A stretch of DNA of 64,000 nt from a virus: the IMG/VR virus record IMGVR_UViG_3300042887_005053, positions 62,001-126,000 of that record. The stretch is one strand, 5' to 3'. Shown in pieces: positions 3,031 through 50,739 of the stretch (positions are counted from its first letter, which is position 1; each line of letters starts with the position of its first letter). Made by a program: the position numbers and the translations under genes. Below the pieces are notes generated by a model. It made no database searches and was not told where the DNA came from. It worked only from the letters and a program-made list of their open reading frames with translations.

Positions 3031-4097
3031 AATTTAATTTCTTTAATAAATTTTTCAAATAGATATTTTGAATCGTTTGGACCTGGTCCTGCTTCTGGAT
3101 GATATTGAACTGAAAATACTGGTAGGTTTTTCATTTTAATACCCATAACAGTTTGATCATTTAAGTGTTCGTGTGTTATTTCTAAATTTGGATTATTTAG
3201 TATCTGTTCTCTAACGAGACAGAATCCATGATTTTGTGAGGTTATTTCACACTTACCGGTTTCTAAGTTCTTAACTGGATGATTACAACCACGATGTCCA
3301 TAGAACATCTTATAAGTATCTATGTTGTTGACTATACCAATTAATTGATGACCCATACAGATTCCGAAAACTGGCTTTTTAAGATTAATTATCTTTTTAA
3401 TAAGCTGAACCATCTCAGGCATTGCTTGTGGATCACCTGGACCATTAGATATAAAAAAACCATCAACTTTATAAGATTTGATGGTTTCGAAATCCGTTGT
3501 TGACGGAAAAATAACTAAGTTGGTATCGAACTGAAGTAAATTCTTTATAATAGATGATTTGATACCTAAATCAATAATACCAATTTTATTCTTACCAGTT
3601 CCAATTTCTTGTATTTTACTACTTGTTACTTTACTGTGAAGATTTTGACCAGTCATTTTAGGATGTTCAGATAATCTTTTTTTCAATTCAGATAATTCTA
3701 ATATCTCAGATGAAATAATACAGTTTTGAGCACCAAACTCTCTAACATGATTTACAAGTGCTCTAGTATCTATATCACTTATACCAACCGTATCTTCTAA
3801 ATATTTTTGTAGAGATGTCGCGTTGTTTCTAGAATAGTTTTGTGAGAAGTTTCGACAGATTACACCAGAAACTTGAACTTTGTCAGACTCAATATCATCT
3901 GAATTTGATCCATAATTCCCAAGATGTGAATTAGTGAGAATTACGATTTGGCCAAAATAAGATGGATCTGAAAAAATTTCTTGATAACCGGTCATTCCGG
4001 TATTGAAACAAATTTCACCAAGTGTGGTGCCGATTTTCCCGAAAGACTTTCCTTCAAAAACACTTCCGTCTTCAAGAAGTAGTATGCATTTAGGCAT
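2997..4097 (-). CDS. carA: Carbamoyl-phosphate synthase small subunit (glutaminase)
   Basis: CarA hydrolyses glutamine and passes ammonia to CarB. At 366 aa it is close to the usual length. The N-terminal CPSase domain (FNTGMTGYQEIFSDPSYFG) is followed by a class I glutamine amidotransferase domain with SNGPGDP, the nucleophile Cys in GICMGHQ, and QYHPEAGPGP carrying the catalytic His and Glu. All catalytic residues are intact, so the enzyme should work. It is the first gene of a carA-carB pair that probably continues into the guanylate kinase-like gene. Phage-borne carAB is unusual. Confidence 0.95.
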   Translation of the reverse strand: MPKCILLLEDGSVFEGKSFGKIGTTLGEICFNTGMTGYQEIFSDPSYFGQIVILTNSHLGNYGSNSDDIESDKVQVSGVICRNFSQNYSRNNATSLQKYLEDTVGISDIDTRALVNHVREFGAQNCIISSEILELSELKKRLSEHPKMTGQNLHSKVTSSKIQEIGTGKNKIGIIDLGIKSSIIKNLLQFDTNLVIFPSTTDFETIKSYKVDGFFISNGPGDPQAMPEMVQLIKKIINLKKPVFGICMGHQLIGIVNNIDTYKMFYGHRGCNHPVKNLETGKCEITSQNHGFCLVREQILNNPNLEITHEHLNDQTVMGIKMKNLPVFSVQYHPEAGPGPNDSKYLFEKFIKEIKLCQETTLSAQY

Positions 4098-4775: not shown

Positions 4776-5399
4776 GTGGAGAGCTTAAGAAATCTTGAAG
4801 TCAACAGATTAATCAAAGAATTAGACTTTATTAAATCGGATTATAATTATCGGTCAGAACTAATTCAATCAATAGATAAAGAATTTATAAATTCAGTTGA
4901 AAATTTTCTAAATACACATCAAAGTCTTAAAGATATTTTTGATGAGAAAACTAAAAAAAATACTGAACATCAAAACATTGAACAAGTTCAAGAGTCAAAC
5001 TATTTTGATGAAGGCCAAGATGAGATGGTTGAGGTTATAGATGATACAATAGTTGAAATAGATGAAAATGCCAAACTTAAACAATTATATAGATTAATAG
5101 CAAAGTCTACACATCCAGATAGAATTAAAGATACTAATCTCAAAGAATTGTATGTTGAGGCAACAATGGCATATGATGAAAATAATATACTACCAATTTT
5201 AAGTATTTGTAATAAGCTACAAATTCCTTATGAAATATCAGAAGACGAAATAGCTTTAGTTAAAGAAGAAATTGAATTAACAAAGAAGAGAATAAAATTT
5301 CTAGAAAGTACATTCACTTGGGAGTGGTATAGAAACGAAGACATCAAGATTAAAGACCAGGTAATATTAAACTATATAAAACAACAGATATCTAAATAG
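4776..5399 (+). CDS. J-domain-like protein
   Basis: 207 aa. Residues 101-150 resemble DnaJ helices II and III: LYRLIAKSTHPDR contains the HPD tripeptide (113-115) that stimulates Hsp70 ATPase. The N-terminal 100 residues are acidic and probably helical, so the J-like part is internal rather than N-terminal. The start is GTG: an in-frame TAA lies two codons upstream and no ATG occurs until residue 84. Redirecting host DnaK during assembly is a possible role (inference). The 3' end overlaps the convergent gene at 5392 by 8 bp. Confidence 0.75.
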   Translation: MESLRNLEVNRLIKELDFIKSDYNYRSELIQSIDKEFINSVENFLNTHQSLKDIFDEKTKKNTEHQNIEQVQESNYFDEGQDEMVEVIDDTIVEIDENAKLKQLYRLIAKSTHPDRIKDTNLKELYVEATMAYDENNILPILSICNKLQIPYEISEDEIALVKEEIELTKKRIKFLESTFTWEWYRNEDIKIKDQVILNYIKQQISK

Positions 5400-5925
5400 T
5401 ATGTTTATAAAGTAAATATTGTAATTCAATATTATTTTTGACATAGATTGGATCTGGTTCAACATCTCTTGGCCAAAACTCAATACCACCTAAAAAGTTC
5501 AATCCTCTTACTAAACTGCAATTATTCGGTAGTCCCTTGACTACTCTTGCATCACTCATTCTAAAACTTCCAGCAACATCCCCTAAATTTTTAGCTAAAT
5601 CATGTTGTTCCCATTTCAAATCTTCTACCTTAATGTGTTTGTTATAAAATTCTTTATTAACAACTAAAACATAAAAGTCACCATACTCCATTTCACTTTT
5701 GATTATTAAATCGGCAAATCTTGAACCACTTAAATATCTTTTAAGTTTTTCATACATAATATCAGCTTGAACTAAGCTTTCAGAGGGATTTACAAATTGA
5801 CTATATTCAACATATAACCAATTATCTGATTGGTCTATAAAACTTGGATCCTTATCAAAAAAAGAAAATAAAAAATCTTCATAATCATTCATCAATGATT
5901 CATTGAATCTTTTCAAATATTTCAT
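5392..5925 (-). CDS. Unknown protein with capsid-targeting-like N-terminus
   Basis: 177 aa, no recognised domain. The N-terminus MKYLKRFNESL matches a peptide shared by about a dozen proteins in this window. It resembles T4 capsid-targeting sequences cut after L/I-x-E, with a possible cut after FNE. The rest is mixed alpha/beta with no membrane segment. Its start overlaps the stop of the upstream gene (5922-6554) in an ATGA arrangement, so the two are translationally coupled. Confidence 0.75.
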   Translation of the reverse strand: MKYLKRFNESLMNDYEDFLFSFFDKDPSFIDQSDNWLYVEYSQFVNPSESLVQADIMYEKLKRYLSGSRFADLIIKSEMEYGDFYVLVVNKEFYNKHIKVEDLKWEQHDLAKNLGDVAGSFRMSDARVVKGLPNNCSLVRGLNFLGGIEFWPRDVEPDPIYVKNNIELQYLLYKHTI

Positions 5926-6554
5926 ATTATATTAATCGTTGGTTTCAATTCATTGATAAGCTTTTCAAACTCATCTTTTCTGAAATACTTTTTGAATTGA
6001 TCATTTTCTTTTTCTATATTAGATAGAGTCCACTCATTTGTATTAGAACTGTTATAGATATATTTATTGCCATCATGTTCAATCTCAATTACTTTTGATG
6101 ACAACTTATCATAGAAGTTTTTGATGTCGCTATTCACTTTGTATAATTTAGAGTCATCCCATTTATTAAGTGTATCATTCCAAGATTGGAAAATAATATA
6201 AATTGGATTTTCTAACTCATTAGCACCAATATTGTAAACTAAAATAAATCTACAAGGTTTGTTCAAAAAAGTTTCTAAATCTTCTGTGTTCTGAAGTGAT
6301 GATGTTTTAAGACCAATACTTGATAATGAATTTATAAATTCAGTATTAGTTGTTAGTAAATCTAAATTTAACTTATCCGCAAAATCTTGTTGTGGTAAAT
6401 GAAATGTATCGTAGATATCAACTTCTTCAGCACCAATTGATTTTAATATGTTTTCGTAGAACATACCAAGAGACTCATTTATATCAATATCAACTAAAGC
6501 GACATCAATTACTAATGATTCTAAATATTTTTGATACGACTTCAAATACTTCAT
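5922..6554 (-). CDS. Unknown protein with capsid-targeting-like N-terminus
   Basis: 210 aa. It begins MKYLKSYQKYLESL, again fitting the shared N-terminal peptide, with a possible cut after YLE. The remainder is acidic and soluble-looking, with no motif I can name. It is the first gene of a two-gene minus-strand unit with 5392-5925. The upstream region on this strand is T/A-rich (TTTATATATA, about 14 nt before the ATG), a variant of the recurring box. Confidence 0.75.
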   Translation of the reverse strand: MKYLKSYQKYLESLVIDVALVDIDINESLGMFYENILKSIGAEEVDIYDTFHLPQQDFADKLNLDLLTTNTEFINSLSSIGLKTSSLQNTEDLETFLNKPCRFILVYNIGANELENPIYIIFQSWNDTLNKWDDSKLYKVNSDIKNFYDKLSSKVIEIEHDGNKYIYNSSNTNEWTLSNIEKENDQFKKYFRKDEFEKLINELKPTINII

Positions 6555-6619: not shown

Positions 6620-8035
6620 ATGAAGTTAGTTAAATCATATAACTTATTCTTAGAAGCTCAAAGTCAAGTACAAGCTCAAAACGATTTAGAAAGACCAAAA
6701 ACTATTTATAACCCTTCTAATTTAGTTTCTGAAATTTGTGTTAGTATGGTATTGCTTAATAATGAATTTCTTGATAATATCTTAGATAGAGGTATGAAGG
6801 CAAGATATTCGGAAAACTCTCAAGTATTTTTAACTGATTTGAAAAACTTATTAATATCTAAAAACCGTTTACACTTGGGTAAATTTGAAAATGGTAGATG
6901 TGTAAGTGATGAAGAGTATTCAAAAATAAATGGATTCTTTGGAGAAGTTGACTTTTCGATTGAAAAAGACTGGAATAAACTTAACGATTCTAGAATTACA
7001 GCAAGAAATATAATTGATAAGCTATTAGTTGATTCTAAATTAGAAGAAGATATGATTTCTAAGATCTATTGGATTGGTCCTAATAAGACTAAGGAAAATA
7101 GTGAAGATATTGTAATAGAAACTACCGACGGTAAACAATACAGTTTTTATTTGAACAAAAATTTGAGTATGACTAAATCATCATCATTCAACACTTTTGC
7201 TGATGATATTATAGGTCAAGATATAGAACAGTTATATAGTGAAGAATACATTTCTAAATGGGATAAGTTAATTCAAAACTGGGTTAGAGTAATTTATGAA
7301 AATGCTAAAAAAGGTATTCAAATTCACATTGAAAAATTTATTGATCCAAGTCGAATCAATACTATAGGATGGTTTGAGTTTTTTGATATCAAACACAGAG
7401 ATCCAAGATTCAAGCATTTAGGAGAATTTATTCCTGAACTAAATAAAAATATTTTAGAGTTTTCTGATTTATTGAATGAAATTTGGAAAAATAGTGAGAG
7501 TTGTTTCATGGATTTTGATAGAGTATACAAAGATTGGATGGAAAAGAAAATTTATATTCTTAATTCTAGAATATTGGAACATATTATAACAGACTCACTT
7601 ACTGTTAATAATATTGACGAAATAAAGAAATTAGAAGATGGATTTAAGTCAGCTGATGGTACTCTTAAAATGAAAATAATCAAAAATATAGTTGAAAAAT
7701 TAGGATGCACTGAGAAGTCAGTCTATTATTTAGGAAATAAAGGAAACTCATTTCATCAAGTACCGTCTCGTCAATTTTTTAGAGAGTTTTATGATGACTT
7801 AAAAGTTAAATTTGATTATCATGTTAAATTAATAGTTGAAAAAGAAGAGGAAAGTAATGACTTCAATTTCAAGCTTATTTTAGAACTAGATAATCAACCA
7901 CTAATAAATTGTAATATTCAAGTTAAGTTTTCTGGTGGTGAAGTATCTAACAAATTGTCAGCTAAATTTAAATTCGAGCCTGTTGATAATTTTAATGTAT
8001 TGATCTCAAATAAAATAAGTGGTGTAGATTCATAA
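6620..8035 (+). CDS. Unknown 471-aa protein with capsid-targeting-like N-terminus
   Basis: It begins MKLVKSYNLFLEAQSQ, one of the closest matches here to a T4-type capsid-targeting peptide (predicted cut FLE|A). The rest is long, charged and mostly helical, without a recognised catalytic motif. It is preceded by an exact TTAATATATA box and followed 2 nt later by another gene with the same kind of N-terminus, so the two form an operon. A packaged internal head protein is the simplest inference. Confidence 0.75.
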   Translation: MKLVKSYNLFLEAQSQVQAQNDLERPKTIYNPSNLVSEICVSMVLLNNEFLDNILDRGMKARYSENSQVFLTDLKNLLISKNRLHLGKFENGRCVSDEEYSKINGFFGEVDFSIEKDWNKLNDSRITARNIIDKLLVDSKLEEDMISKIYWIGPNKTKENSEDIVIETTDGKQYSFYLNKNLSMTKSSSFNTFADDIIGQDIEQLYSEEYISKWDKLIQNWVRVIYENAKKGIQIHIEKFIDPSRINTIGWFEFFDIKHRDPRFKHLGEFIPELNKNILEFSDLLNEIWKNSESCFMDFDRVYKDWMEKKIYILNSRILEHIITDSLTVNNIDEIKKLEDGFKSADGTLKMKIIKNIVEKLGCTEKSVYYLGNKGNSFHQVPSRQFFREFYDDLKVKFDYHVKLIVEKEEESNDFNFKLILELDNQPLINCNIQVKFSGGEVSNKLSAKFKFEPVDNFNVLISNKISGVDS

Positions 8036-8037
8036 CT

Positions 8038-8358
8038 ATGAAATATTTGAAGGCTTTTAATGAAATGAATTATCAAGATTTGTTTGATTATGATCATATA
8101 ATTAACATATTGAAAAAGTCTCACGGATGGGGTTTTGGTGTAATTTCAAATACTGATGAGTTTGAAAATAACGAAGAGTATTTTTTGAATCCTCAAAATG
8201 ATAATGAATACGCTGAACAATTTCACATTTTTCTTACCGATAAAACAACTGGTCAACTAAGAGGTGAGTTCAACAATAAACATAGTCTAAGACTTGGTAA
8301 ATGGAAGACTGGTATTCAAGTTGCTGCTCCAGTGTCTATTTATAACAAGTTAACGTAA
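8038..8358 (+). CDS. Small unknown protein with capsid-targeting-like N-terminus
   Basis: 106 aa beginning MKYLKAFNEMN. The body has a WGFGVIS segment and an H/F-rich beta-like region, with no known motif. It starts 2 nt after the stop of the 471-aa gene, so translation is probably coupled. Confidence 0.7.
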   Translation: MKYLKAFNEMNYQDLFDYDHIINILKKSHGWGFGVISNTDEFENNEEYFLNPQNDNEYAEQFHIFLTDKTTGQLRGEFNNKHSLRLGKWKTGIQVAAPVSIYNKLT

Positions 8359-11300: not shown

Positions 11301-12297
11301 GATTCAACAACCTAATGGCCAATTTGAAGATGTTTCTATACAATATTCAACTGGTGTATTTAGAGAGGATGTTGACTACAAATATATTTATATAACAGAA
11401 GAATCTAAAAAATTAGTAGATGAAGCAAAAAAATACGAAGAAGAAGGTGACCTAAACAAAGCAGTAAGTTTGCTTGAAGATGCTGCTAAATTAGATCCAA
11501 ATAATTCATTTATTTTTGATAAGTTAGAACAACTTAAAAAGTTATCTGAGTTAATGAGAACTAATCCTATATTTGATTTTTTACTGAATATTGTTACTCT
11601 ACCCCTGAAGGTCATATTCAATGTAGTTGAATATATTATGAATTTTTTCAAATCTCTAACAAATCCATTTGAGTTACCAGGAGCGATTGCTGAATTTGTT
11701 TCATTCAAATGGTTAAAGGATTTGTTTGACCCAACAAGTAAAAAGAGTATGTTTGCACTGGCTGGTATATTATTTGATGTTCCAACTTTTACTAAAGAGT
11801 GGTTACCTAGTTTAATATCTGGTTCAAAAAACGAATTTGATTTCAATAAAATTATCAAACTTCCTTGGGTCATGAGACTTCCTAAATTTAGTTTAGAACA
11901 GTTTAGATTTTTGACATTTGGATACTATGGTAAACCAACTCCAAATTTGATACCTCTTCAGATGTTAAATGCAATTCTATCTTTAATTGAAAAAATAATA
12001 AATGCTTTTATAGATTTTGTCTGGAGTCTTTTAGGATTAGGTGCAATAATTGATCCACCCTATGTCAGACTAACGAGAGATTTTAATTTAGCAGAAAATA
12101 TGAGTCCAAAAGATATTTTGGATTTACTATCAGGTAATTATAAAGATCCAAACAGTGAAGAAAATTCAAATAAAGAGTACAACTTTGCTTATGAAATTAA
12201 GGCACCTGATGGTAGAGATATTAGAGATTTGAACTACGAAGAGTTACAAAAATGGGTAGATGAGAATAAAAACCTGCAATTTGTTTATAACTTTTAA
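8383..12297 (+). CDS. Very large probable virion structural protein
   Basis: 1304 aa. I do not recognise the family. A Gln/Asn run (QNQNQNQNQDQN, near residue 190) separates the N-terminal region from a beta-rich middle. A module with the pattern YSTGxFxxxVDYxYIY occurs twice (about residues 226 and 986). A single TPR-like helix pair follows the second copy (about 1010-1045). Long hydrophobic helices occur near 780-810, 1060-1090 and 1200-1225. Size, repeats and its place beside packaged-type genes suggest a tail or baseplate component; a scaffold or tape-measure role is also possible. It ends by sharing stop-codon bases with the convergent exported-protein cassette. Confidence 0.75.
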   Translation: MALVNFSIPNIPSFKSTTPSPKPILFVPDVEKLIKFAQGDLGIADSIRTSMIVTNIAKCTDPFQLESFLKAAGGKLKNPIESYFQDGRLTFDPSDLSIDPKPGDLGGLKSLEKALFQSIFDTQKPYVEIIKLVTENLVKIEDIVARVLAAGGSSMKPADNPKALGYKGNSEVAQSMFKLQSLAKPSTSNQNQNQNQDQNVESNTPEEKTAEVLPPGFSYATQSILYSTGEFDPTVDYTYIYKDFKDDSIVLPDGTASATANQDDEKPKVVVFGIFDSTWKPLQSSFIDTPIQTANSNGTVQKNVNWLKRSNKWFNKFDQYVEGTDFSYQTDADGNIIYYGSNEGPSVTLEGETKYVKEGFPKLSVKNGLISSYRNYYIDETRIKLSKREDLSVQERQNIISEIGKTIDKTDSTGIPNLQNVIEGNLKNSFCSITNENNTPGLPADFITNAKFPFKPKKITYNSKEVWIDPEAQYDLKIIKCDSSIDIKYLDIEGDSSKTVSTQILRFVKKSLVIRLSNDENFDYILTGTTDTIPLQDNTNEFVLDNHSDSSAYSIEIRQSKIPNEYSDGISWDEIIGNTTTGNRFTLTTSNGTSRLSISFLDSQVQNPTFNDSYILPNGKKFFVDDSGVLLYTEIYNGSLSDYLPSNLEKNTVIINMSDFSLTETRGIIPPNLIRVKDTNYKFGKLISNTQITNEQLVTTNPYSKNGLYGTPNIKNQNIEQIYRYMITEDDTETYYIVEGILSSDNKQKLNAPNGGSSTNASGNSPDSGDYSLPDVVGAFPIFIEMLVDIFSKLIPLINQFINTIKNPTQIVFNIIVAKMGDAFGTEAPKFGFFSSDFLNDLRKLRKIEDDDVTERAKKMREFVNNSKLFNYVNIDENANPRFILDGIATVKLFGDAPGLSSLPGIKFGIESNLTSLASSDPKEPFKLVFQGPTVNTLKSIPELSGLVANLENLKSSALSNVNLEPKLEIPSEIQQPNGQFEDVSIQYSTGVFREDVDYKYIYITEESKKLVDEAKKYEEEGDLNKAVSLLEDAAKLDPNNSFIFDKLEQLKKLSELMRTNPIFDFLLNIVTLPLKVIFNVVEYIMNFFKSLTNPFELPGAIAEFVSFKWLKDLFDPTSKKSMFALAGILFDVPTFTKEWLPSLISGSKNEFDFNKIIKLPWVMRLPKFSLEQFRFLTFGYYGKPTPNLIPLQMLNAILSLIEKIINAFIDFVWSLLGLGAIIDPPYVRLTRDFNLAENMSPKDILDLLSGNYKDPNSEENSNKEYNFAYEIKAPDGRDIRDLNYEELQKWVDENKNLQFVYNF

Positions 12298-12743
12298 CGA
12301 TAGACCTCTATCATTTTTTCAACATGTCTTATAATCCAAGGCTCAACAACTGGTAATTGATTTAAGAAATCTAATTCATAGTTATAAGCTCTAAATTCTT
12401 CTAATTTCGGATCAATCAATATTTTTTCATTGTACACAAAAAGGTGATATGATTCATGTACAATTAAAGATGATATATTTGTTATTGAATTAATCTTCAG
12501 GTCTTTTGTATTTATAACAATCGTATTTGGAGGAAATGTTGTTGAAGAAGTGCCAATTATATAATCGATATTCTTGCAATACTTCACAACCATATTATAT
12601 TTTACCTCGTCATATCTCTTTATTAGGTAGAGAGCACTATCGACTTTTTGCTTGTAATTACTGACATCACTTATCTTTATTTGTGAGAATAAATTAAGTG
12701 TATTAAGTAATAAAATTAAAATTATGGCATTTTTGATATACAT
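12294..12743 (-). CDS. Exported HExxH putative metallopeptidase
   Basis: 149 aa. An N-terminal signal peptide (hydrophobic core about 5-18, ending LFSQ) predicts export. The motif VHESYH fits HExxH zinc binding, and an acidic run ELxxFRAYNYE about 20 residues later could give the third ligand, as in gluzincins. No other domain is visible, so this is a minimal catalytic unit or a non-catalytic relative. It overlaps the upstream gene by 22 bp and is the last gene of the exported-protein cassette. Confidence 0.65.
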   Translation of the reverse strand: MYIKNAIILILLLNTLNLFSQIKISDVSNYKQKVDSALYLIKRYDEVKYNMVVKYCKNIDYIIGTSSTTFPPNTIVINTKDLKINSITNISSLIVHESYHLFVYNEKILIDPKLEEFRAYNYELDFLNQLPVVEPWIIRHVEKMIEVYR

Positions 12744-13177
12744 TCTTGAACTCCTTTTTTGATTGCCGATGAAACAGTAGTTTTAGAAAATGGAACTTTT
12801 CCATCTGTTAATTCAATAAATGAAGCTCTGACTTCTGTATCTGATTCTCCTATACCTTCATATATCTGATCTTTGTGATAGAACCTAATACCAACCTGAG
12901 TTATTTGATTTGTTTTTTCCATGCCACCTATTCTTAAAGATTTTTTAGGAACACCAAAGTAGAAAACTTCAATTTTAATTGGAGAACCATCATCTGATAA
13001 GCAATATTTGTTTGACAGCTCATCTTCAGCCATTTGCTTAATACCGAAACAGATGTTCCTGTTGCCAAGTTCTTTAACCTTGGCAGTAGAATAAACTGTG
13101 TCAATAAAAACACAATCTTGTGCATAAAATATATTTGTAATTAAGATAACTAAGATTGATAAAATAATTTTTTTCAT
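12722..13177 (-). CDS. Exported CsgG-related small protein
   Basis: 151 aa with signal peptide (core 3-17, ending FYAQ). Residues about 65-151 echo the CsgG-like protein at 16818: an IEVFYFGV strand, a TNQITQVGIRFY strand, GIGES, and a closing SSAIKKGVQE helix match IEVYDFSV, TTQTTRLGLQV, GLGEAS and a closing Ile/Lys-rich helix there. I infer a shortened paralogue of the CsgG fold; an unrelated periplasmic protein is the alternative. It lies in the same tight minus-strand unit. Confidence 0.6.
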   Translation of the reverse strand: MKKIILSILVILITNIFYAQDCVFIDTVYSTAKVKELGNRNICFGIKQMAEDELSNKYCLSDDGSPIKIEVFYFGVPKKSLRIGGMEKTNQITQVGIRFYHKDQIYEGIGESDTEVRASFIELTDGKVPFSKTTVSSAIKKGVQECISKMP

Positions 13178-13186
13178 TTCTATTTG

Positions 13187-14896
13187 TTAATTTTGTTTTC
13201 CAGTTTTTATTAGGTAAAAATTAGTAGTTCCGTTATTAACTGGTGATTGTATTGTTACTGTTTGTGACCCAGGTATTGTATTTCTGAGATCTGTATTACT
13301 ATTTTGTATTGTAGACCACTCAGATGTAGTAAATATTCTATAGTTAGGTAAAGGACTTATCCAGCTAGTGAATCTATCATTTATTCTTGCATAAATGTAA
13401 TAACTATCACTTACACTAATCTTACCATCATTGTTGACATCAAATAGATAAAATGATTTAGATGTAGGATTTATTGATCCTAAGACAATAGAAGATGTAG
13501 ATTGAAAATCTAAGACTGATGGTTTGTCAATCGTAAGATTCGAAATTTCAAAATAATATTCTGTCATAGGATTACTTGGTTTACTGATTGTGTATTTACC
13601 AGTCAAATCTGTATAGACTGTTTCATCAAGTATCCAAGAACTAGTCGTTATGATATTATCAAATTCTATAACATAGTTTAATGATACATAATCTGGTAGA
13701 TCGTTCCAAAGACCACCACCAACAAACTGTGCGTAATTTTCACCTCCTGAGTTGTTTGGTTCTCCTCCGTTCCAGTTATTATAAATAGTTCTTCCAAATC
13801 GAGCTTGTGATTTCATGAATACTCTTTTAATTTCATCATCAGTAAGAGCGACATTGTGTACCTCAAATCTACCTATTCTACCGTCAAAAAATAAACCAGA
13901 TCCCATATTTGTAACATCAGAACCAGCTAAGAAATAATGTAAACCGTTTCCATTTGCATATGGTGTTTGTCTTGAAAAGGCAACTTGTGAGAAATAAATA
14001 CCATTAAGATATCCTTTAAGAGTTGTACCAGAATATGTTAATGTTACCATGTTCCAACTTCCCACCGAAATCGTTGTTGATATTTGACTAATACCACTAC
14101 CATTCCAAAGACCAAGTCTTAGAGTTGCTGTCGTTCCATTTGAACCAGTGACTTCGATGTTTGAATCATGCCAACCGGAATTGATTGATTGTGCTCCTCT
14201 TTCTGAGACTATTACGCCGTTACCCCAAGCAAGTACCCAAATGTTTAGAGTAAGATCTTTAGATGATACTGGAAAATTTGCGGCTAAATTTCTAGTAGCC
14301 ATATATCCTTGTGGATTAGCTGCACCACCAGTATTGAAGAACATAAAGTCTCCTAATAAGGTTGAGTATCCATATCCATTTGTTTGACTTCTAAAGAGAT
14401 CGGCGTGAACTGTACCTGATAAGTTATTAACAACAGTACCACTACCACTGTAAGATCTATTTACACTGAAATCATAATCAGCTACTTTTCCTCTAGTTAC
14501 ATCAGATTCTGTCCATGACCATCCACCACTTGGCTCAGAGTAGTAGTCTGATGTGACATCTTGTGAATATCCTATCCAACCAGAGGGCCAAGTATTGAAT
14601 AAGAATGAGTTTTCACTTGCATCTGAGATAGTGGCTAGATGACCATTCATGGACTCACAGATTGTCTTGGAATTAGTCCAAGTATTAGTTGTTGTTGAAC
14701 GATAGTATGAGTGTCCGTTATAGTTTGTTTGAGCTGTAAATCCAGTCAGATTAGATGTGGTTCTTTTGTATATTTTTACTGGTATACCTGATACACCAAC
14801 ACCATCCTGATTGTAAATATATCCAGAATAGTTTAAATTTTGTGAAAAAACTATTGAGTGAAGTAATAAAAGAAGTAATAAATTTAGTATTTTCAT
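13187..14896 (-). CDS. Secreted C-type lectin interrupted by a ConA/LamG-like domain
   Basis: 569 aa with signal peptide (1-18). Residues 60-131 carry the first half of a C-type lectin fold (WTNSKTICESMNGHLATIS, then GWIGYSQD). The second half (NWNGGEPNNSGGENYAQ, then GGLWNDLP) appears only at 371-413. In between, 135-368, is a concanavalin/LamG-like jelly roll ending GRIGRFEVHNVALTDDEI. A dockerin-like segment (FDVNNDGKISVSDSYYIYAR) is at about 484-503, and a related module occurs in the 18457 protein. A glycan-binding surface role is likely; whether it is on the virion or the infected cell is unknown. Confidence 0.8.
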   Translation of the reverse strand: MKILNLLLLLLLHSIVFSQNLNYSGYIYNQDGVGVSGIPVKIYKRTTSNLTGFTAQTNYNGHSYYRSTTTNTWTNSKTICESMNGHLATISDASENSFLFNTWPSGWIGYSQDVTSDYYSEPSGGWSWTESDVTRGKVADYDFSVNRSYSGSGTVVNNLSGTVHADLFRSQTNGYGYSTLLGDFMFFNTGGAANPQGYMATRNLAANFPVSSKDLTLNIWVLAWGNGVIVSERGAQSINSGWHDSNIEVTGSNGTTATLRLGLWNGSGISQISTTISVGSWNMVTLTYSGTTLKGYLNGIYFSQVAFSRQTPYANGNGLHYFLAGSDVTNMGSGLFFDGRIGRFEVHNVALTDDEIKRVFMKSQARFGRTIYNNWNGGEPNNSGGENYAQFVGGGLWNDLPDYVSLNYVIEFDNIITTSSWILDETVYTDLTGKYTISKPSNPMTEYYFEISNLTIDKPSVLDFQSTSSIVLGSINPTSKSFYLFDVNNDGKISVSDSYYIYARINDRFTSWISPLPNYRIFTTSEWSTIQNSNTDLRNTIPGSQTVTIQSPVNNGTTNFYLIKTGKQN

Positions 14897-14898
14897 AA

Positions 14899-16818
14899 TT
14901 AAAGTATAAATCTTGTGCCCATTAATATTGTGTAGTTTAGAACATTTTCTTTAATAGCATATGCTCCTCCTATATTTATATTAAATTTAAATGTCTTTGT
15001 AATTGAAATATTCGTTCCAACAATAGGTAAAATAACATGAGGTGATTTTAGAAGAATATCATTATAATATTTTACATAAGGTGCATATACATAAAGTCCA
15101 ATAAGTTTTACATCAAATCTCTGATTGACTTTCCAATCATACATGGATCCTGCTATAAAAGCAGTACCAATAAATTTATTTTCATAAACATTCCCATAAG
15201 AGGTGGTAACTAAATAAACTAATTTTAAATTTTGTGGTTTCTGAAACTTCCACATTTGACCAATTGCTAGGGTTCCATATATAGACTTCTTCGCATCTAA
15301 TCCAAATGTAACTGATGTACAAGCAAGATCAATTCTTTTTTCAGTTAAGTTTGCATAAAATCCCATAACATTTGGACCTTTAATTGAGCTAGTATAATCA
15401 GCCATAATGCCATGAACTTTAAGTCCATCCCATCTCATAGATGTATAACCGCCAGAGATTTTTGTTCCATATTTTATATCATTATTTTGAAAATTGAATC
15501 CAGCATAATCACTAGCCAAGATAACAGTAGGTTTACCATTATTTGATGTTGACTTTTCGACAGAGTTAACTGAATTACCAACAACATTCACGGATCCACC
15601 ACCTTTTTCTTCAGCTTTGTTTTCTGTTGTATTGTCACCGGGTAATTGTTCACTTTTCTTTAGTTCACCATTCTGAGATGTTCCATTATTAGAGTTTGTC
15701 GTATTCGAACTATTTTCTGATGACTGATTGTTATTAGTATTTGAAGAATTATTCGGATTCTGAGATGTTGAATTGTTATTTGCAGTTGATGAATTATTTT
15801 GAGGTGACTGGTTGTTTGTATTGTTAGCAGAATTCTGAGATGATTGAGTATTAGTATTTGATGAGTTACTTTGAGATGATGTATTATTCGACTGCTGATT
15901 AGTATTGGTATTTAATGAATTTGAAGAGTTATTCGATGACTGATTACCATTAACAGTTGTTTGATTATTATTAGGATTTTGAGTATTACTGGTCTGATTA
16001 TTACTCTGATTATTAGTTTGGTTGTTGTTAGGATTTTGAGTATTAACGGTCTGATTATTACTCTGATTATTAGTTTGGTTATTAGTTTGATTATTATTAG
16101 AATTTTGACTACCAGATTGATTATTAGTCTGTAAATTACTATTTTGTTGACTATTTGTAGTTTGATTAGTGTTATTAGTCGTTGTATTTTGATTATTCGA
16201 ACTATTATTAGTAGAATTTGAGTTACTAGATTGTTGTGAATTACTCGAATTTGAGCTACTCTGATTTGTTGAATTTGATTGTTGATTGATGTTATTATTT
16301 TTGTTATCTGAATCACCACTCATCTCAATCCCGGTATTTTGACTTTCGTTATTTTTCTTTTTTGATTCTTCACTTTTACTAGTACCATTCAATGTGGCAT
16401 CTAAAAGATTCATGCTACTATTTCTCATATTAGCGGCGTCTTGAACCGCTGAGAGTGAGTTTAATATACTTATGAAATTAAGTGCTGTGGTTTGTCCAAT
16501 ATTTATAGCAGTAGGTAGTCCTACAATACTCGCACAAGGATTATTACCACCAAATGAATTATAAACATCATCTGCCCAATTCTCAAATGATCCATTGTAG
16601 AAGTCATTTGATTGAAATGTTTGAATCTGACCATAGTAAGAGACTGTTATTCCATTACTGGGTACACTTAGAGTTTTCTTGACACCGGTACAAGGATCGA
16701 TATAAGAATATTGAAATGTTGATTGTGAAAAAGTGGTGAAATTTAAAAAAGAAAATAGTAAGGTAATTAATACGCCTATTACCTTACTATTTTTTCTTTT
16801 GAATTTCTCATATAACAT
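14899..16818 (-). CDS. Asn/Gln-rich exported protein with C-terminal beta-barrel-like domain
   Basis: 639 aa in three parts. A signal peptide and Cys-containing N-terminal domain (IDPCTGVKKTLS, to about 150) come first. A roughly 240-residue Asn/Gln/Ser/Thr tract built of NNQTNNQSNNQT-like units follows. The C-terminal 190 residues alternate in the manner of an outer-membrane barrel and end in GTRFIL. Composition of the middle is prion-like or amyloid-like. The gene starts on the last base of the csgG-like gene (TAATG overlap), so the two are coupled. Cargo or partner of the CsgG-like pore is an inference. Confidence 0.75.
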   Translation of the reverse strand: MLYEKFKRKNSKVIGVLITLLFSFLNFTTFSQSTFQYSYIDPCTGVKKTLSVPSNGITVSYYGQIQTFQSNDFYNGSFENWADDVYNSFGGNNPCASIVGLPTAINIGQTTALNFISILNSLSAVQDAANMRNSSMNLLDATLNGTSKSEESKKKNNESQNTGIEMSGDSDNKNNNINQQSNSTNQSSSNSSNSQQSSNSNSTNNSSNNQNTTTNNTNQTTNSQQNSNLQTNNQSGSQNSNNNQTNNQTNNQSNNQTVNTQNPNNNQTNNQSNNQTSNTQNPNNNQTTVNGNQSSNNSSNSLNTNTNQQSNNTSSQSNSSNTNTQSSQNSANNTNNQSPQNNSSTANNNSTSQNPNNSSNTNNNQSSENSSNTTNSNNGTSQNGELKKSEQLPGDNTTENKAEEKGGGSVNVVGNSVNSVEKSTSNNGKPTVILASDYAGFNFQNNDIKYGTKISGGYTSMRWDGLKVHGIMADYTSSIKGPNVMGFYANLTEKRIDLACTSVTFGLDAKKSIYGTLAIGQMWKFQKPQNLKLVYLVTTSYGNVYENKFIGTAFIAGSMYDWKVNQRFDVKLIGLYVYAPYVKYYNDILLKSPHVILPIVGTNISITKTFKFNINIGGAYAIKENVLNYTILMGTRFIL

Positions 16819-17540
16819 TATGACCTAAAAATACCTTTTTTGATCATTCTTGAAACTATTCTCGAAGAAGCCGTCTCAAGTGACTTTTTCGTAGTTATAC
16901 CAATAGTTGATTGATTGAACTTTACTTCTGTGTCATCTACTCCATCTAATATTGAAGCAGTTTTAATTGTACTAGCTTCACCTAATCCAGAACCAACTAT
17001 TACTTCTCCAGTTTCAGCATCAACAAATTTTACTTGTAGACCCAATCTAGTTGTCTGTGTAGTCTTCGATTCGCCATTTATCTTTACAACCTCATCCTCT
17101 GAGACCGAAAAGTCATAAACTTCAATATAAACAAAGTATTCAGCAAGTTTTATTTTACCTCTACCATCAACTTTATTTTCGGTGAATCCTTTATCAGATG
17201 CTTTGAATTGATTGACCATTCTTTCTTTTATTTCAAGTTTATCTTCAGTGAAAACAAATCTACCAGTATATTCTAAATACTCAAGTACTATGTTTGTAAC
17301 ACCAAGACCAACTCTTTTGTCTTTCAATTCTGGGTACATTGAATATAACTCTTCATTGATTCCGATTTTTAATAATTGAATTGGAATAACTATTGAATCA
17401 GTATAGTCTGATACCACATCTATAGATTGTTGTTTCTCAAAAGCAGCTTGGTATTGCTCAGTCTTAACACTACCGACAGGCTGAGCAATACTAGCTATTG
17501 AAAAAATCATATAAATTAAGAGTAAGCCTAATTTTTTCAT
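16818..17540 (-). CDS. csgG: CsgG-family curli secretion pore-like protein
   Basis: 240 aa. CsgG forms the outer-membrane pore that exports curli subunits. Seen here: signal peptide (1-19, ending SIAQ), GLGVTNIVLEYLEYTGRF, YVEV-type strands around VYIEVYDFSVSE, TTRLGLQVKFVDAETGEVI, GSGLGEAS and a C-terminal helix SRIVSRMIKKG, in the CsgG order. It lacks the Cys lipobox of E. coli CsgG, so it would not be lipid-anchored in the same way. It sits inside a unit of exported proteins. CsgG-like genes are, as I recall, known from some marine phages; their job there is unresolved. Confidence 0.8.
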   Translation of the reverse strand: MKKLGLLLIYMIFSIASIAQPVGSVKTEQYQAAFEKQQSIDVVSDYTDSIVIPIQLLKIGINEELYSMYPELKDKRVGLGVTNIVLEYLEYTGRFVFTEDKLEIKERMVNQFKASDKGFTENKVDGRGKIKLAEYFVYIEVYDFSVSEDEVVKINGESKTTQTTRLGLQVKFVDAETGEVIVGSGLGEASTIKTASILDGVDDTEVKFNQSTIGITTKKSLETASSRIVSRMIKKGIFRS

Positions 17541-17548
17541 TTTATTAA

Positions 17549-18100
17549 TTAATTTTGTTCTTCATCTGTTACATCACCACTGAAGTCTCTAGGTTCTTGA
17601 TAGTTAGGCTCTTCTTCTACATATGTGTCAGTAGTATTCTCTTCAACAAATGTATTTGTCTCTTGAGTTGGCTCATTCACTACTGTAGATTCAGAAGGTG
17701 TTGGTACATAAGATGCCTGAGATGTTGGTGGAGTTGGTGTCTTAGGTGAAGTGTATTCAGCAACATTTGATAGACTGTTACCGTCTTCTTCGTCAACTTT
17801 CTGAATCAACATTTTATCTCTGTCTTCTGAATTGAACCAATAATCAACAACTTTATTTAAGTTACCAACAAATGCACCTAATAATATAAGTAACATTTCT
17901 TTCCAGTTCTCTTGTATTTCCACACTGAAAAATACTGCTGAGTTTATACCAGCTATTATGAAGAAGAATAGAAATAATACAATTACCGTGATTCTCCATC
18001 TGTTAGCTTGCATTTGTTGTAACATATAGTAGAATCTATTTTTATCCTCTACTTTTACATATCCAGTTTCTCCGAATACTGTTCTTTTGAATTTTGACAT
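17549..18100 (-). CDS. Membrane protein with two transmembrane helices (holin candidate)
   Basis: 183 aa. Two hydrophobic helices at about 36-60 and 68-86 are separated by a short loop, followed by DYWFNSEDRD and a long Pro/Thr/Glu-rich soluble tail. Two close helices plus a charged tail would fit a holin or an inner-membrane anchor. There is no specific signature, so lysis is only a suggestion. It lies 8 nt upstream of the csgG-like gene and 17 nt downstream of another membrane protein. Confidence 0.65.
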   Translation of the reverse strand: MSKFKRTVFGETGYVKVEDKNRFYYMLQQMQANRWRITVIVLFLFFFIIAGINSAVFFSVEIQENWKEMLLILLGAFVGNLNKVVDYWFNSEDRDKMLIQKVDEEDGNSLSNVAEYTSPKTPTPPTSQASYVPTPSESTVVNEPTQETNTFVEENTTDTYVEEEPNYQEPRDFSGDVTDEEQN

Positions 18101-18117
18101 AGTTTTAATTTATTTTT

Positions 18118-18447
18118 TTACCAAGGAGAATCTTCGGTCTCACTTTTTTTCTCTTGCTTTTTCTCTACTGGCTTTTCAACAACAGTTTCTTTGATGATTG
18201 TTGTTGTACCACCGGATTTTTGTTGTTGTGTGTTCTCTTGATTTTGTTGAACATTTACAACTACTGGAGCAGGAGCTGGTTGTACTTGTTCAGTCTTAGT
18301 AGATTCTTCATCATCTGAGTGTCCACCGAATAGGGTTGTTGAGATCCATACTCCGCCTCCGGCGATTACTGTTGTTAAAGTACCAATGATAGTCTTTTTT
18401 AGACCTGACCAAGTACCATCGTTTGTCTCTTGTGTTTCTTCTGACAT
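18118..18447 (-). CDS. Single-span membrane protein with charged tail
   Basis: 109 aa. One hydrophobic segment (about 19-40, rich in Gly/Ile/Thr) is followed by a Pro/Gln/Val linker and a Lys/Glu-rich C-terminus. This layout is seen in spanin-like and TonB-like linkers, but no diagnostic motif is present. It lies 9 nt downstream of the cohesin/T9SS gene. Confidence 0.6.
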   Translation of the reverse strand: MSEETQETNDGTWSGLKKTIIGTLTTVIAGGGVWISTTLFGGHSDDEESTKTEQVQPAPAPVVVNVQQNQENTQQQKSGGTTTIIKETVVEKPVEKKQEKKSETEDSPW

Positions 18448-18456
18448 AATTTTAAT

Positions 18457-20382
18457 TTATTTTTTTATTATTTTACAAGTTTGTGATTGTGAATTAGCTT
18501 TCATATTTGCAAAGTACAAACCACTTGAAAAATTCGATATATTATCTTGATAGATATATTTACCAGCTGGCATATCCTGATTTATAATCATCTGATTAGT
18601 GACACCGTTCGGATCTGAAATATAAATCAAGACCGCTCCTGCATTTTTTACTTCAAACTCCAATGTTATCTCTCCAGTTGTTGGATTTGGATAAACTTGA
18701 AAAACTTGATCGTTCTGACCAGCAACTTTAGTGACAACCACAACACCATTTGAAGGGTTAATATTTAAATCTTTTGAAAATTCATTTCCTGAGAACTTTC
18801 TTGTTGTAAATAATGGTGAAAAATCCCAGTCACTTTGAGGTTGTTTAGCTAAAAATCTTAGTGTAAAGATTTGATCATCATTATTAACTAAATACTCTAG
18901 TTCAGCTGTTGGGTCATATCCACCCCATTCAATAGTATTATCTCTAGTATTTAAGAATGTCAACCACATCATAGTTTTCTCAGAATTCAAAATATCTTTG
19001 AACTCAAGAATTTCAGGATTATACATTACAGCAAGTTGTAAAGAAGATACTTGTTCACCATTAGTTAAAACTTTAACTGGTACTTCAACTAAGTTTCCTT
19101 CACTAACAGTGAGACTCGGCATATTTATTTCTATATCAGATGTTGGAAAATCGTACTGAACTCTTAAATCAATAACATTCTCTGTTGCTGATGGATATTC
19201 TGGGTGGTTTACTTCAACATTTATTGGTGTCAAACGAGCCATGTGGAAACCAGTACCATTTGCATCACCAGGAACTAAAACATAAAATTGAACTGAACTT
19301 GGTTGACCAGGTAAAATATTATACACAAAGTTTGTAACACCTGATATAGAAGATGTATAGTTATTTGTTGGATTTGTAGTAATAGTATTAAACTCTGTTT
19401 GTGTAAAAAACTTTATATCAGATGTAGAGTTAGGCCAAGTTGTAAATCTACCAGCAATTCTACCAAATACGCCATAAGCATCACTAATGGTTACATTGTT
19501 ACTTGAGTTCACATCAGCACTGTAAAAATCAAATCCAGATGGATTAGATGTGCCTAAAACCCATTGATTGATCAACTCAGCATCTGCAGTTGAAATTACA
19601 TTACCAACATTCATAGTGTCTCCTTGAACTGAAATCCTTACATCAAAGAATGTGGTATCGATTGATTCATTAAAAGAAAAATAACCATCTACATTTGTAG
19701 TGTATGTATCATGTATAGACCAAACGCTACCTGTTTTTGGTTTCTTTTCTAAAGCAACAGATAAATTCTTAGCACCAGATCCAGTAACATTTGTGAATGT
19801 GCCTGAAAAATTCAAAGTGTGTAAAAGAAAGTTACCACCATAATTATGTAAACTAAGAGGTAGATCGAAACCTGGTTGAGTCGCAACATAACTTGTGTAG
19901 TTATTAGTTGGTATTAAAGTCGTCCAACTAAGATTGTTTATACTTGTTATATTTGTAAATATAGAACTCTCAACATGCTCAAAGGTCAATTGGAATGTTT
20001 CTCCATTTGATAAACTAAAAGTGCTACTATTACCGGTATAAACTAAAGTAATTGTTATATAACCTTGAGCATTGTTGTCTACATATTGTAAATAAAGATT
20101 CGATGAAGACCCAACTAAATTTACACTACAAGATGTAAAAGCTGTGTTATCATAGAACACTCTAAACTGAGTACCTGTTGTTAAAGTAGTTGTAGTATTT
20201 TGTAGGGTTATCAAAGCAACTGTTTGGCCTTGATTAGTAGTACCAACTGTATAGTTAGTATCGATAATAGCCCAAATGCCATTACTTGGCGCAGGTGGTC
20301 CACTTTGTGAGTAAAGTGAAACTGGTAATGTAGACAACAATGTCAAGATTACCACCGAAAGGACGGATTTCAGTAGTTTCAT
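18457..20382 (-). CDS. Secreted cohesin/dockerin protein with T9SS sorting domain
   Basis: 641 aa. Signal peptide (1-25); beta-rich N-terminal region; a dockerin-like segment near 270-300 (FYSADVNSSNNVTISDAYGV); a cohesin-like domain near 410-545 (EGNLVEVPVKV, LQLAVMYNPEILEF); and a C-terminal domain of about 80 residues with VYPNPTTGEITLEF and SSGLYFANMK, the type A sorting signal of the Bacteroidota type IX secretion system. The product should therefore be moved to the cell surface by host T9SS. It is the first gene of the cassette. A T9SS substrate in a phage-type region is unusual. Confidence 0.85.
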   Translation of the reverse strand: MKLLKSVLSVVILTLLSTLPVSLYSQSGPPAPSNGIWAIIDTNYTVGTTNQGQTVALITLQNTTTTLTTGTQFRVFYDNTAFTSCSVNLVGSSSNLYLQYVDNNAQGYITITLVYTGNSSTFSLSNGETFQLTFEHVESSIFTNITSINNLSWTTLIPTNNYTSYVATQPGFDLPLSLHNYGGNFLLHTLNFSGTFTNVTGSGAKNLSVALEKKPKTGSVWSIHDTYTTNVDGYFSFNESIDTTFFDVRISVQGDTMNVGNVISTADAELINQWVLGTSNPSGFDFYSADVNSSNNVTISDAYGVFGRIAGRFTTWPNSTSDIKFFTQTEFNTITTNPTNNYTSSISGVTNFVYNILPGQPSSVQFYVLVPGDANGTGFHMARLTPINVEVNHPEYPSATENVIDLRVQYDFPTSDIEINMPSLTVSEGNLVEVPVKVLTNGEQVSSLQLAVMYNPEILEFKDILNSEKTMMWLTFLNTRDNTIEWGGYDPTAELEYLVNNDDQIFTLRFLAKQPQSDWDFSPLFTTRKFSGNEFSKDLNINPSNGVVVVTKVAGQNDQVFQVYPNPTTGEITLEFEVKNAGAVLIYISDPNGVTNQMIINQDMPAGKYIYQDNISNFSSGLYFANMKANSQSQTCKIIKK

Positions 20383-20516
20383 AATATAAATATTTTTTTA
20401 TGACTTATATATTTTCATTTTAAAACAAAAAAGAATTCGCTATCTAAATTTTAGAAAATAAACCAACTTTTATTTTAAAAAAGTATATAAAGTCAAAATT
20501 TAATAAATTTATAATA

Positions 20517-37230: not shown

Positions 37231-38787
37231 ATGTCAAAAGAAGCATTAAGAAAACATATTTACATAGGAGTTGTTGAAGACAACAAAGATCCAAAAAAAT
37301 TAGGTAGATGTAGAGTTCGAGTATTTAATATATTCGATGATATACCGGTTGAAGACATTCCTTGGGCGTCACCTTGGAAAGACTTAAATGGAAATGGATT
37401 TACTGTTCCAGAAAAAGGAAAAGTCCTATCAGTTGTTTTTGATGAAGGCAATAAATATAAACCAGAGTATATCTGTGCAGAACATTATAATGTTAATTTA
37501 GAAAAGAAGTTAGAGTCTTTGGGTGAATCTGATTACCTATCAATGAGAACTTTATTATTTGATCATAAAACACAAATATATTCAAACGATAATGAAGGTC
37601 TTAAAATAGACTACAAGTTTAACAATATCAACATAACCGATACTAATATTGATGTAAATCTAAAAGATAATTTTGGAACATTGAATTTAGGAACATCTAC
37701 TGCTAATCAACAAGCAATTTTAGGTAATCACTTTCTGGATTGGTTTGATGAATTTTTAGATAATTTACTTGGATCAAGAGGAGGACCATATCTTGGTAAT
37801 TTGGGAGCACCAGTAGTTGCAAATCCTGATTTGATTCAGTGTATTTCTAAATACAAAGCTTTGAAAGATCCTAAATTTCTTTCACATCATGTTAATATCG
37901 TGGACAACGAGTATGTTAATAAATTAGATAGAGTTTGTGATCCACAATTGGGTGACACTTGGAAATCAACTGTTAAAGAAAATGAAACTGTTGTCAAAGA
38001 AAGGCCAGCATTCCTTCCACAAAGTGGTAATTCAACTGATACTCCTGAGGGTGACTTGACTACTTCTGTTGACGAAAAAGGCGTAGTAGAAAATGCAGTA
38101 AAAACAGAAGAACCACCAAAAGTTGAAGTAACTGTAAATCCAGATTTGAATAATATTCTGAAAGCGATGGAAAAGAAAAAATACAAGATTTTGACTAGAC
38201 CTTTCGAAGCAAATATTGTCGGAATTAGAAGACAATATGAAGGACAGAAATATTCAAATGCTTTCAAAGATGATTTGTTTTTATTTTTCAAGGATACTAG
38301 TGGTAATTGGCAAACTTACAAATTTAAGATTTCGACTATGCCTGGCTTCTATAATGGAGTCGACGTCCTAAAAGACGGTAAGTGGAAATTTAAAAAAGAT
38401 AAAAACTCTAAATTAAATGTAAAACAATCACAAATGATGTTAGGTCGTGGTGGTATGGGTATTTTAATGGAGGCTCAGTATATTAATTTGTATACGATCG
38501 GTGATTATCACAGCGCTCCAGCAATGAAAACACTTGGTGCACAAAAATTTTATAGAGACACTAATCCAACTGATACTATTACTTATACTAAAAAAGGTGA
38601 AGGTACAGCAGCGATGTATATACATTTAGGATATAATGGTGGTAGAACTGTAGATAACTGGAGTGAAGGCTGTCAGGTATTCTCACAGAAGTCTGAACAT
38701 TTGAAGTTTTTTGACCTTTGTCAAGAACATAAGAACAGATACGGAAATAAGTTCAACTACACGCTAATGTTAGAGAGAGACTTATAA
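37231..38787 (+). CDS. 5: gp5-like OB-fold spike protein with C-terminal cell-wall-active-like domain
   Basis: 518 aa. Residues 8-90 (YIGVVEDNKDPKKLGRCRVR, VEDIPWASPW, PEKGKVLSVVF) are the OB-fold of gp5/VgrG-type spike proteins. The C-terminal 130 residues have His465 in MYIHLGYNGG and NWSEGCQVF with Cys481, an H...SxGC pattern like YkuD-type L,D-transpeptidases. The T4 gp5 lysozyme domain is absent, consistent with its replacement by the GH19 domain on the hub. The peptidoglycan role of the C-terminal domain is inferred. Confidence 0.75.
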   Translation: MSKEALRKHIYIGVVEDNKDPKKLGRCRVRVFNIFDDIPVEDIPWASPWKDLNGNGFTVPEKGKVLSVVFDEGNKYKPEYICAEHYNVNLEKKLESLGESDYLSMRTLLFDHKTQIYSNDNEGLKIDYKFNNINITDTNIDVNLKDNFGTLNLGTSTANQQAILGNHFLDWFDEFLDNLLGSRGGPYLGNLGAPVVANPDLIQCISKYKALKDPKFLSHHVNIVDNEYVNKLDRVCDPQLGDTWKSTVKENETVVKERPAFLPQSGNSTDTPEGDLTTSVDEKGVVENAVKTEEPPKVEVTVNPDLNNILKAMEKKKYKILTRPFEANIVGIRRQYEGQKYSNAFKDDLFLFFKDTSGNWQTYKFKISTMPGFYNGVDVLKDGKWKFKKDKNSKLNVKQSQMMLGRGGMGILMEAQYINLYTIGDYHSAPAMKTLGAQKFYRDTNPTDTITYTKKGEGTAAMYIHLGYNGGRTVDNWSEGCQVFSQKSEHLKFFDLCQEHKNRYGNKFNYTLMLERDL

Positions 38788-40905: not shown

Positions 40906-40938
40906 AAAAACCCACTTAAAAGTGGGTTTTTGTTTATT
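40906..40938. terminator. Bidirectional rho-independent terminator
   Basis: Stem AAAAACCCACT / AGTGGGTTTTT with a TAAA loop; A- and T-runs on both sides serve the 40503 gene and the convergent clpP gene, whose stop is at 40934. Confidence 0.8.
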
Positions 40939-48219: not shown

Positions 48220-48239
48220 TCTAAAAATAACTTTTGTTT

Positions 48240-48597: not shown

Positions 48598-49014
48598 TTA
48601 TTTTCTTCTTTTGTTTCTTTTAGATTCCATTACAGCTTCTTTCTCAACAACATCAGACTTTAGAAAATCTAAAACTTCTTCCATTGAATCAAATTTCTTT
48701 TTGTCAACATGAAAAGATTCTGTTTCTGAAAAATAGTTAATTTTATGACCTTCATAGTTAATCTCATTATTAACTACTTCAGCTCCTAAAGCATCTGCTA
48801 GCTGTTTCATCAAAACAGTACCCTCATACTGACTACCTTCTTCTTCTTCGTATTCATTAGAAGAGTCAACAATGTTACTTGGGTCTTTTTCTTCCATTTC
48901 TTCAGTAGCTTGTAGACCAGCCTCTAATTCTGTGGATTCAACTGGAGCTTCGATTGGCTCATTTGACTCGTTGATTTTACTTACGAAGTCACTATAATTT
49001 TTAACTATTTTCAT
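48598..49014 (-). CDS. Acidic protein with capsid-targeting-like N-terminus
   Basis: 138 aa beginning MKIVKNYSDFVSKINESNEP, with a predicted cut INE|S matching the T4 I/L-x-E rule. Then comes a long Glu-rich segment, a compact beta/helix unit (about 80-125) and a basic end SKRNKRRK. Very acidic internal proteins would fit a prohead core or packaged cargo. Confidence 0.7.
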   Translation of the reverse strand: MKIVKNYSDFVSKINESNEPIEAPVESTELEAGLQATEEMEEKDPSNIVDSSNEYEEEEGSQYEGTVLMKQLADALGAEVVNNEINYEGHKINYFSETESFHVDKKKFDSMEEVLDFLKSDVVEKEAVMESKRNKRRK

Positions 49015-50729: not shown

Positions 50730-50739
50730 TATATATTAA
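50730..50739 (-). promoter_or_regulatory. TTAATATATA box
   Basis: Exact match on the minus strand, ending 5 nt before the ATG at 50724 and overlapping the stop codon of the polymerase fragment. Confidence 0.5.

Follow-up and report, generated by a model that had tools for sequence, protein, structure and literature searches.

A block of about eight genes for exported proteins is shared by large viruses of Flavobacterium-type bacteria, and its products are directed, as judged from their sequences, to the envelope and outer surface of the infected cell. The block was analyzed in a 64,000-nucleotide stretch of virus DNA (bases 62001-126000 of the 204,336-base IMG/VR record IMGVR_UViG_3300042887_005053), which is called the window here. 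We propose, with a probability of about 45%, that this cassette is a phage-encoded surface-display module, which is associated with lysis, is made late as one operon, and uses the type IX secretion system (T9SS) of the host. The first-pass annotation of the window had taken the genes for one module of exported, surface-directed proteins, and this view was strongly supported by the conservation of the set and by its T9SS, cohesin, dockerin-like, and lectin domains.

Layout of the cassette

The cassette consists of eight open reading frames (ORFs), named A to H and all located on the minus strand from 20382 to 12294, as listed below together with the element upstream of A.

20406..20415, minus strand: late-promoter-like element AAAATATATA, 33 nt upstream of gene A, with two mismatches to TTAATATATA
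18457..20382, minus strand: gene A (641 amino acids), signal peptide, beta domains, dockerin-like loop region, cohesin, and T9SS type A sorting tail (Pfam)
18118..18447, minus strand: gene B (109 amino acids), short N-terminus, weakly hydrophobic Gly-rich segment, and long disordered tail (alignment of 49 relatives)
17549..18100, minus strand: gene C (183 amino acids), membrane protein with a strong hydrophobic segment and a second, weaker one; its position is holin-like
16818..17540, minus strand: gene D (240 amino acids), predicted CsgG-fold outer-membrane pore-like protein (AlphaFold model and structure matches)
14899..16818, minus strand: gene E (639 amino acids), small N-terminal domain, N/Q-rich linker, and C-terminal 12-strand outer-membrane barrel (AlphaFold model of the relative in locus L059)
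13187..14896, minus strand: gene F (569 amino acids), C-type lectin with inserted LamG and a C-terminal dockerin-like domain (Pfam)
12722..13177, minus strand: gene G (151 amino acids), exported, predicted short paralogue of D (profile comparison)
12294..12743, minus strand: gene H (149 amino acids), exported HExxH protein, probable zinc metallopeptidase (motif conservation)

The intergenic spacings from A to H were +9, +17, +8, -1, +2, +9, and -22 bp. Sec-type signal peptides with (A/S)xQ-like ends were found on A, D, E, F, G, and H, and most relatives carried one as well in a crude test (A 44/51, D 37/39, E 46/48, F 39/49, G 39/43, and H 25/36). The first-pass annotation, whose coordinates matched ours, was thus right in describing eight nearly contiguous genes on one strand, six of them with signal peptides. 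In its list of proteins, the T9SS substrate, the lectin/ConA-like protein, and the HExxH protein were confirmed; however, the cohesin and dockerin-like domains had been overlooked.

The cassette sits among tail genes. The window also encodes a tail sheath, a baseplate, a tail protein with an endolysin domain, a helicase, and a DNA polymerase, and its source is, by gene content, a large myovirus-like phage.

Occurrence of the cassette in other phages

When viral contigs were scanned with D, at least 210 stretches encoding relatives were recovered, and the best 80 of the 210 were retained for analysis. Removal of near-duplicates left 54 loci, of which 37 extended beyond the cassette by over 3 kb on each side. 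Every one of these 37 non-redundant, well-flanked loci contained A, B, D, E, F, and G. With all ORFs read, the gene order in the relatives was A-B-(C)-D-E-F-G-(H), in which C and H shift or drop out. The set was also recovered from an isolate with a complete genome, Flavobacterium phage vB_FspM_immuto (immuto hereafter), as F-A1-A2-B-D-E-G (gp13-gp19), all of which are vaguely annotated. The immuto cassette adjoins replication genes and that of the window is surrounded by tail genes, suggesting that the block behaves as a unit.

The first-pass annotation had recommended a search for the same gene set in other phages and had named a chimeric assembly among the findings that would refute its claim. 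The recovery of the set in 37/37 complete loci and in immuto answers the former, and the latter is excluded by the independent contigs and the isolate genome. Bacterial contamination was ruled out by the 210 contigs together with the complete isolate genome, and the recurrence of the set across independent contigs and in the isolate excludes a chance grouping or misassembly.

In 300 genomes from the family to which a Flavobacterium metagenome-assembled genome (MAG) belongs, the D profile matched only G002, and the other 299 lacked it. Among 84,980 species genomes, D occurred in only two records, both of which were MAG contigs carrying the cassette; we read these two as phage contigs from their phage-type neighbors. 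A divergent cassette was seen on a Flavobacterium MAG contig (L084:5930-11966), with G, a cohesin-like protein of 597 amino acids, B, C, a small membrane protein termed n1, and D, followed by a GH19 endolysin.

Sorting tail and cohesin of protein A

Protein A combines a signal peptide with a C-terminal sorting tail, as T9SS type A cargo does. The tail scored 37.5 bits against the Pfam Por_Secre_tail family (cut-off 27) and 34.9 against TIGR04183 (cut-off 23), was found in 38/38 relatives, and contained an invariant PNP. Since A carries this tail, the host T9SS should export it and attach it at the cell surface. The cohesin domain of A scored 27.0 bits (Pfam cut-off 24.1) and was present in 34/38 relatives.

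The C-terminus of F was homologous to the dockerin-like region of A (27% identity, E 6.8e-11). In immuto, A is split into two genes: gp14 corresponds to the dockerin-like half, and gp15 carries its own signal peptide, the cohesin, and the T9SS tail. Because these halves are two proteins in immuto and a single chain in other phages, the cohesin and the dockerin-like parts probably bind each other.

Exchange of the lectin part of protein F

Protein F gave matches above the Pfam cut-offs to LamG (44.9 bits) and to the C-type lectin (32.9 bits, against 22.6 for the lectin). The C-type lectin carries EPN and WND motifs and is split by LamG, and the dockerin-like end follows. Across the relatives, the middle of F was Lectin_C (21/37), LamG (14/37), GEVED, PA14, or another domain. 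Closely related loci differed most in this part. Between L042 and L043, D was 95%, G 88%, and F 32% identical; between L063 and L065, D was 98% identical and F could be aligned across only 55% of its length. The F coverage fell to 55-63% in several close pairs, and the remaining genes still aligned. These alignments indicate that the lectin middle is exchanged between close relatives while the rest of F is retained. Such swapping suggests that F meets a partner that changes and is not encoded by the phage, in the simplest case the glycans of the host.

Proteins D and G

D was the most conserved protein of the cassette, and it had no sequence match in Pfam, PHROGs, NCBIfam, or the PDB. The best Foldseek matches of its AlphaFold model were CsgG structures (4uv2, 6l7a, and 4uv3), of which 4uv2 was matched with an E value of 1.6e-7 and a probability of 1.00. 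Compared with a profile of eight host CsgG proteins, D reached only 0.6%, and it does not qualify as CsgG by sequence. The CsgG-like protein of the first-pass annotation therefore stands as a predicted fold but fails as a sequence assignment. A lipoprotein signal was absent from D of the window, and a lipobox-like sequence was seen in 9/39 relatives. No cassette protein belonged to the curlin CsgA/B or CsgF families. The possibility that D is a recent capture of a host curli CsgG was rejected, since the CsgG family PF03783 occurs in 51/200 genomes of the host family, the D profile is nearly absent there (only G002 of 300 genomes), and the profile comparison gave the 0.6% mentioned above. The CsgG proteins of Flavobacteriaceae hosts (L101-L108) are about 470 amino acids long, and the part after their CsgG domain resembles a C-terminal barrel.

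For G, sequence searches of PHROGs, NCBIfam, and the PDB gave nothing useful. The comparison of the D and G profiles yielded a probability of 96.6% (E 5e-10), by which G is a remote, short paralogue of D and the cassette holds two CsgG-like proteins.

Proteins E, H, B, and C

In the AlphaFold model of the L059 relative, E has a small N-terminal domain with two conserved Cys, a disordered linker, and the 12-strand barrel. FapF was among its top Foldseek matches, and porins and autotransporters scored equally. The linker is N/Q-rich in the window and G/S/T/P-rich in relatives. Hence, the "N/Q-rich barrel" noticed earlier is a barrel in the model, but its N/Q stretch is a variable linker. An amyloid role for this stretch is unsupported, as the composition of the linker is not conserved.

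The HExxH motif of H, together with EE..Y..E, was invariant in 26 relatives, in agreement with the earlier description of H. No family matched above the cut-off, and a SprT-like match lay below that of Pfam; H is a probable zinc metallopeptidase.

Profile searches found no family for B. The hydrophobicity of B is weak, and its tail ends in a conserved acidic-P-W motif in the 49 aligned relatives. C carries the highly conserved ILLGAFVGNLNKVVDYWFNSEDRDK. In 7 relatives the slot of C is taken by n1, which also precedes the endolysin in some relatives. This placement of n1 suggests that C is holin-like, although no homology was detected between C and n1. The comparison of C with a holin-like ORF at 48234 was likewise negative.

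Promoter-like elements and timing

The motif TTAATATATA occurred at about 40 places in the record where a start codon, in some cases that of a structural or tail gene, follows at a distance of 14-16 or 31-35 nt. Examples lie upstream of 30105, 35485, and 62805. It is probably the late promoter of this phage and recalls the late promoters of T4. In the relative L013, the motif stands without mismatches 33 nt before A, the same distance as that of AAAATATATA in the window. ATA(A/T)ATA was present at 20-40 nt in 22/89 leaders of A or the endolysin (19/52 loci), compared to 6.9 expected by shuffling. The same motif preceded internal cassette genes in 2/243 cases, a contrast that is flattering in that internal genes are short of upstream space. 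These elements are hints of late expression of the cassette and, together with the long-conserved intact reading frames, argue against a cassette that is never expressed.

Proposed function

We speculated that the cassette works as follows. It would be transcribed late in infection, probably as one operon, and Sec would export six of the products (A, D, E, F, G, and H). The host T9SS would then place A on the surface, and F may dock on the cohesin of A and face outward. D, with E and G, may form an outer-membrane channel or anchor that puts F and its partners outside. B and C may hold or energize the complex at the inner membrane, or C may be a holin, and H may trim the exported proteins. The benefit is the least certain step. 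Most likely, the glycans of the dying host would be coated or masked late, which would keep rivals and the phage's own progeny from adsorbing to the cell (superinfection exclusion); adhesion to other cells would be the second choice.

On the nature of the apparatus, we only tentatively suggest an undescribed trans-envelope machine, in which two CsgG-fold proteins, a barrel, and inner-membrane partners, together with a T9SS-exported cohesin scaffold, would display interchangeable lectins in step with lysis.

Several results weigh against the surface-display proposal. The model of D is only middling (mean predicted local distance difference test score of 67.5, template-modeling score of about 0.5). 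The dockerin-like domain scored 14.2 bits in F and 12.6 in A, both below the Pfam cut-off of 22.9, and it contains one DxNxDG-like calcium loop where a type I dockerin has two. F is devoid of a T9SS tail, and the proposal leaves its exit route unexplained. No paralogue of the F lectin was found elsewhere in this phage record, which gives no sign that F mimics the receptor-binding protein of the phage; the idea of F as a copy of the phage's own fiber was rejected for the same reason. Finally, the element upstream of A in the window differs from the motif at two positions.

If the proposal is true, a widespread group of large freshwater phages exploits the Bacteroidota-specific T9SS and remodels the surface of the host with lectins that can be swapped. 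The cassette may also bear on how such phages handle the outer membrane at lysis. An isolate, immuto, exists along with its host, Flavobacterium sp. LMO8, and direct testing is possible.

Lysis genes beside the cassette and alternative explanations

The commonest neighbor of the cassette was an endolysin with peptidoglycan-binding and GH19 domains, which lay within 5 kb in 29/37 complete loci. With random placement in genomes of 150-430 kb, such closeness would arise in roughly 5% by our estimate, in which related loci are not independent. The endolysin gene stood just before A (14-48 bp upstream, same strand), just after F (about 40 bp downstream, same strand), or beyond H with n1 in between, or its orientation was divergent or convergent. 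These several arrangements suggest that the association arose or was retained repeatedly. Moreover, an immuto-type holin gene adjoins A in L071.

These endolysin and holin-like neighbors, which the first-pass annotation had overlooked, open the main rival explanation, in which the cassette is a lysis device that disrupts the outer membrane. The holin, C or n1, would act with the neighboring GH19 endolysin, B would be a spanin-like tether, D, E, and G would open the outer membrane, and A and F would loosen the coat. A CsgGF pore has been proposed as a lysis regulator in phage Melnitz (PMC9004378), in line with this idea. Nevertheless, we consider it unlikely. It leaves the obligate A and F and the swapping of lectin domains unexplained. 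A distance of 28 kb separates the immuto cassette from the annotated holin and GH19 endolysin of that phage, and a search of the record of the window for a GH19 endolysin as a protein of its own was negative, such a domain occurring only in the tail protein at 32473-35454. A unimolecular spanin requires a lipobox plus a transmembrane segment; B lacks the lipobox and is thus no such spanin, and the missing homology of C and n1 also speaks against the device.

The swappable lectin, LamG, and PA14 modules on a surface anchor are also what an adhesin or aggregation module would need, by which infected cells would stick via F to cells or surfaces and the progeny would meet new hosts ("sibling capture"). 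A similar proposal has been made for pelagiphage curli (PMC9599517). However, the set has no curlin-like fiber gene, late expression beside lysis genes would leave little time, and no clumping was seen with the CsgGF phage Melnitz (PMC9004378), all of which make this explanation improbable.

Freshwater Bacteroidota live on glycans, and E has porin-like matches, so D and E could form an uptake channel that feeds the infected cell while the lectins collect polysaccharide; but the set includes no glycan hydrolase or TonB-dependent transporter and is associated with an endolysin, and we regard this as very improbable. That the products are virion proteins (fibers or decorations) is hardly credible: lectins are common on phage tails and the cassette of the window has tail genes around it, but the signal peptides, T9SS tail, CsgG fold, and outer-membrane barrel, as well as the position of the immuto cassette by replication genes, speak for the host envelope. 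The titles and abstracts of papers naming immuto mention no virion proteomics.

Comparison with known systems

Pelagiphages carry CsgG with CsgF and curlins, for which roles in aggregation or superinfection have been proposed (PMC9599517). Their type VIII secretion system (T8SS, curli) modules (PMC9599517, PMC9004378) resemble the present cassette in that several neighboring genes of a phage encode an exported apparatus of the envelope, including a pore with the CsgG fold, and in the roles considered (aggregation, superinfection defense, or lysis). However, no CsgA/B or CsgF was found here, D lies outside the Pfam CsgG family, and the hosts are Bacteroidota; the cassette adds a T9SS-tailed cohesin, a lectin, a second CsgG-like protein, a separate barrel, and a metallopeptidase. 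We place the cassette with phage-borne envelope modules and not with the T8SS.

Cryophages likewise have variable genes with T9SS type A tails, proposed for superinfection exclusion (PMC7468147). Theirs encode enzymes and a PA14 protein, whereas here one tailed scaffold is conserved and the variable F is a separate partner. A surface-anchored cohesin with dockerin-like partners recalls cellulosome scaffolds, but the single-loop dockerin-like domain is below the cut-off, the partners are lectins rather than enzymes, and the genes are phage-encoded. Holin-endolysin-spanin cassettes are similar in the endolysin and holin-like neighbors of most relatives; they differ in that the conserved core here consists of exported envelope and surface proteins, the lysis genes being optional and, in the window and immuto, non-adjacent. 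For Bacteroidetes phages, only unimolecular spanins have been recorded (PMC12596118). E shares with FapF, an amyloid exporter of Pseudomonas, a 12-strand barrel after an N-terminal domain and a long linker, but generic porins and autotransporters score alike, and there are no Fap amyloid genes.

No description of this gene set was found in the literature searched, subscription papers being outside its scope. New here are the GH19 endolysin association, the holin-like genes in the C slot, and the late-promoter-like elements before A or the endolysin in some loci.

Other genes near the cassette and in the window

An exported DNA/RNA non-specific endonuclease (n6) was located in or beside the cassette in L015, L044, L051, L056, L063, L064, and L070, and as immuto gp12 in L081. 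It might attack DNA outside the cell or DNA on its way in. DUF481 barrels (n5) are further companions of the cassette. At its C-terminus, the baseplate hub protein (37231-38787) shares phrog_3000, a family weakly linked to endolysins, with the stand-alone n3 proteins beside the endolysin of relatives.

The window carries metabolic genes at 286-4097, 40934-41596, 53079-54425, and 57840-59000, encoding large and small subunits of carbamoyl-phosphate synthase, ClpP, adenylosuccinate lyase, and PPK2. The match of the DNA polymerase ORF (50736-51830, 364 amino acids) to phage DNA polymerase profiles was limited to their C-terminal part. Since a possible HNH-type endonuclease ORF lies nearby at 52042-53061, the polymerase may be split.

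Many predicted proteins begin with an MKxxKxF/YxxF-like leader (5392-5925, 5922-6554, 6620-8035, 8038-8358, 43108-43662, 48598-49014, 49870-50724, 57840-59000, and 61680-61985), which we take to resemble the capsid-targeting sequence of T4 internal proteins. The leader-bearing proteins, among them the PPK2-type enzyme, may be packaged in the capsid and then injected.

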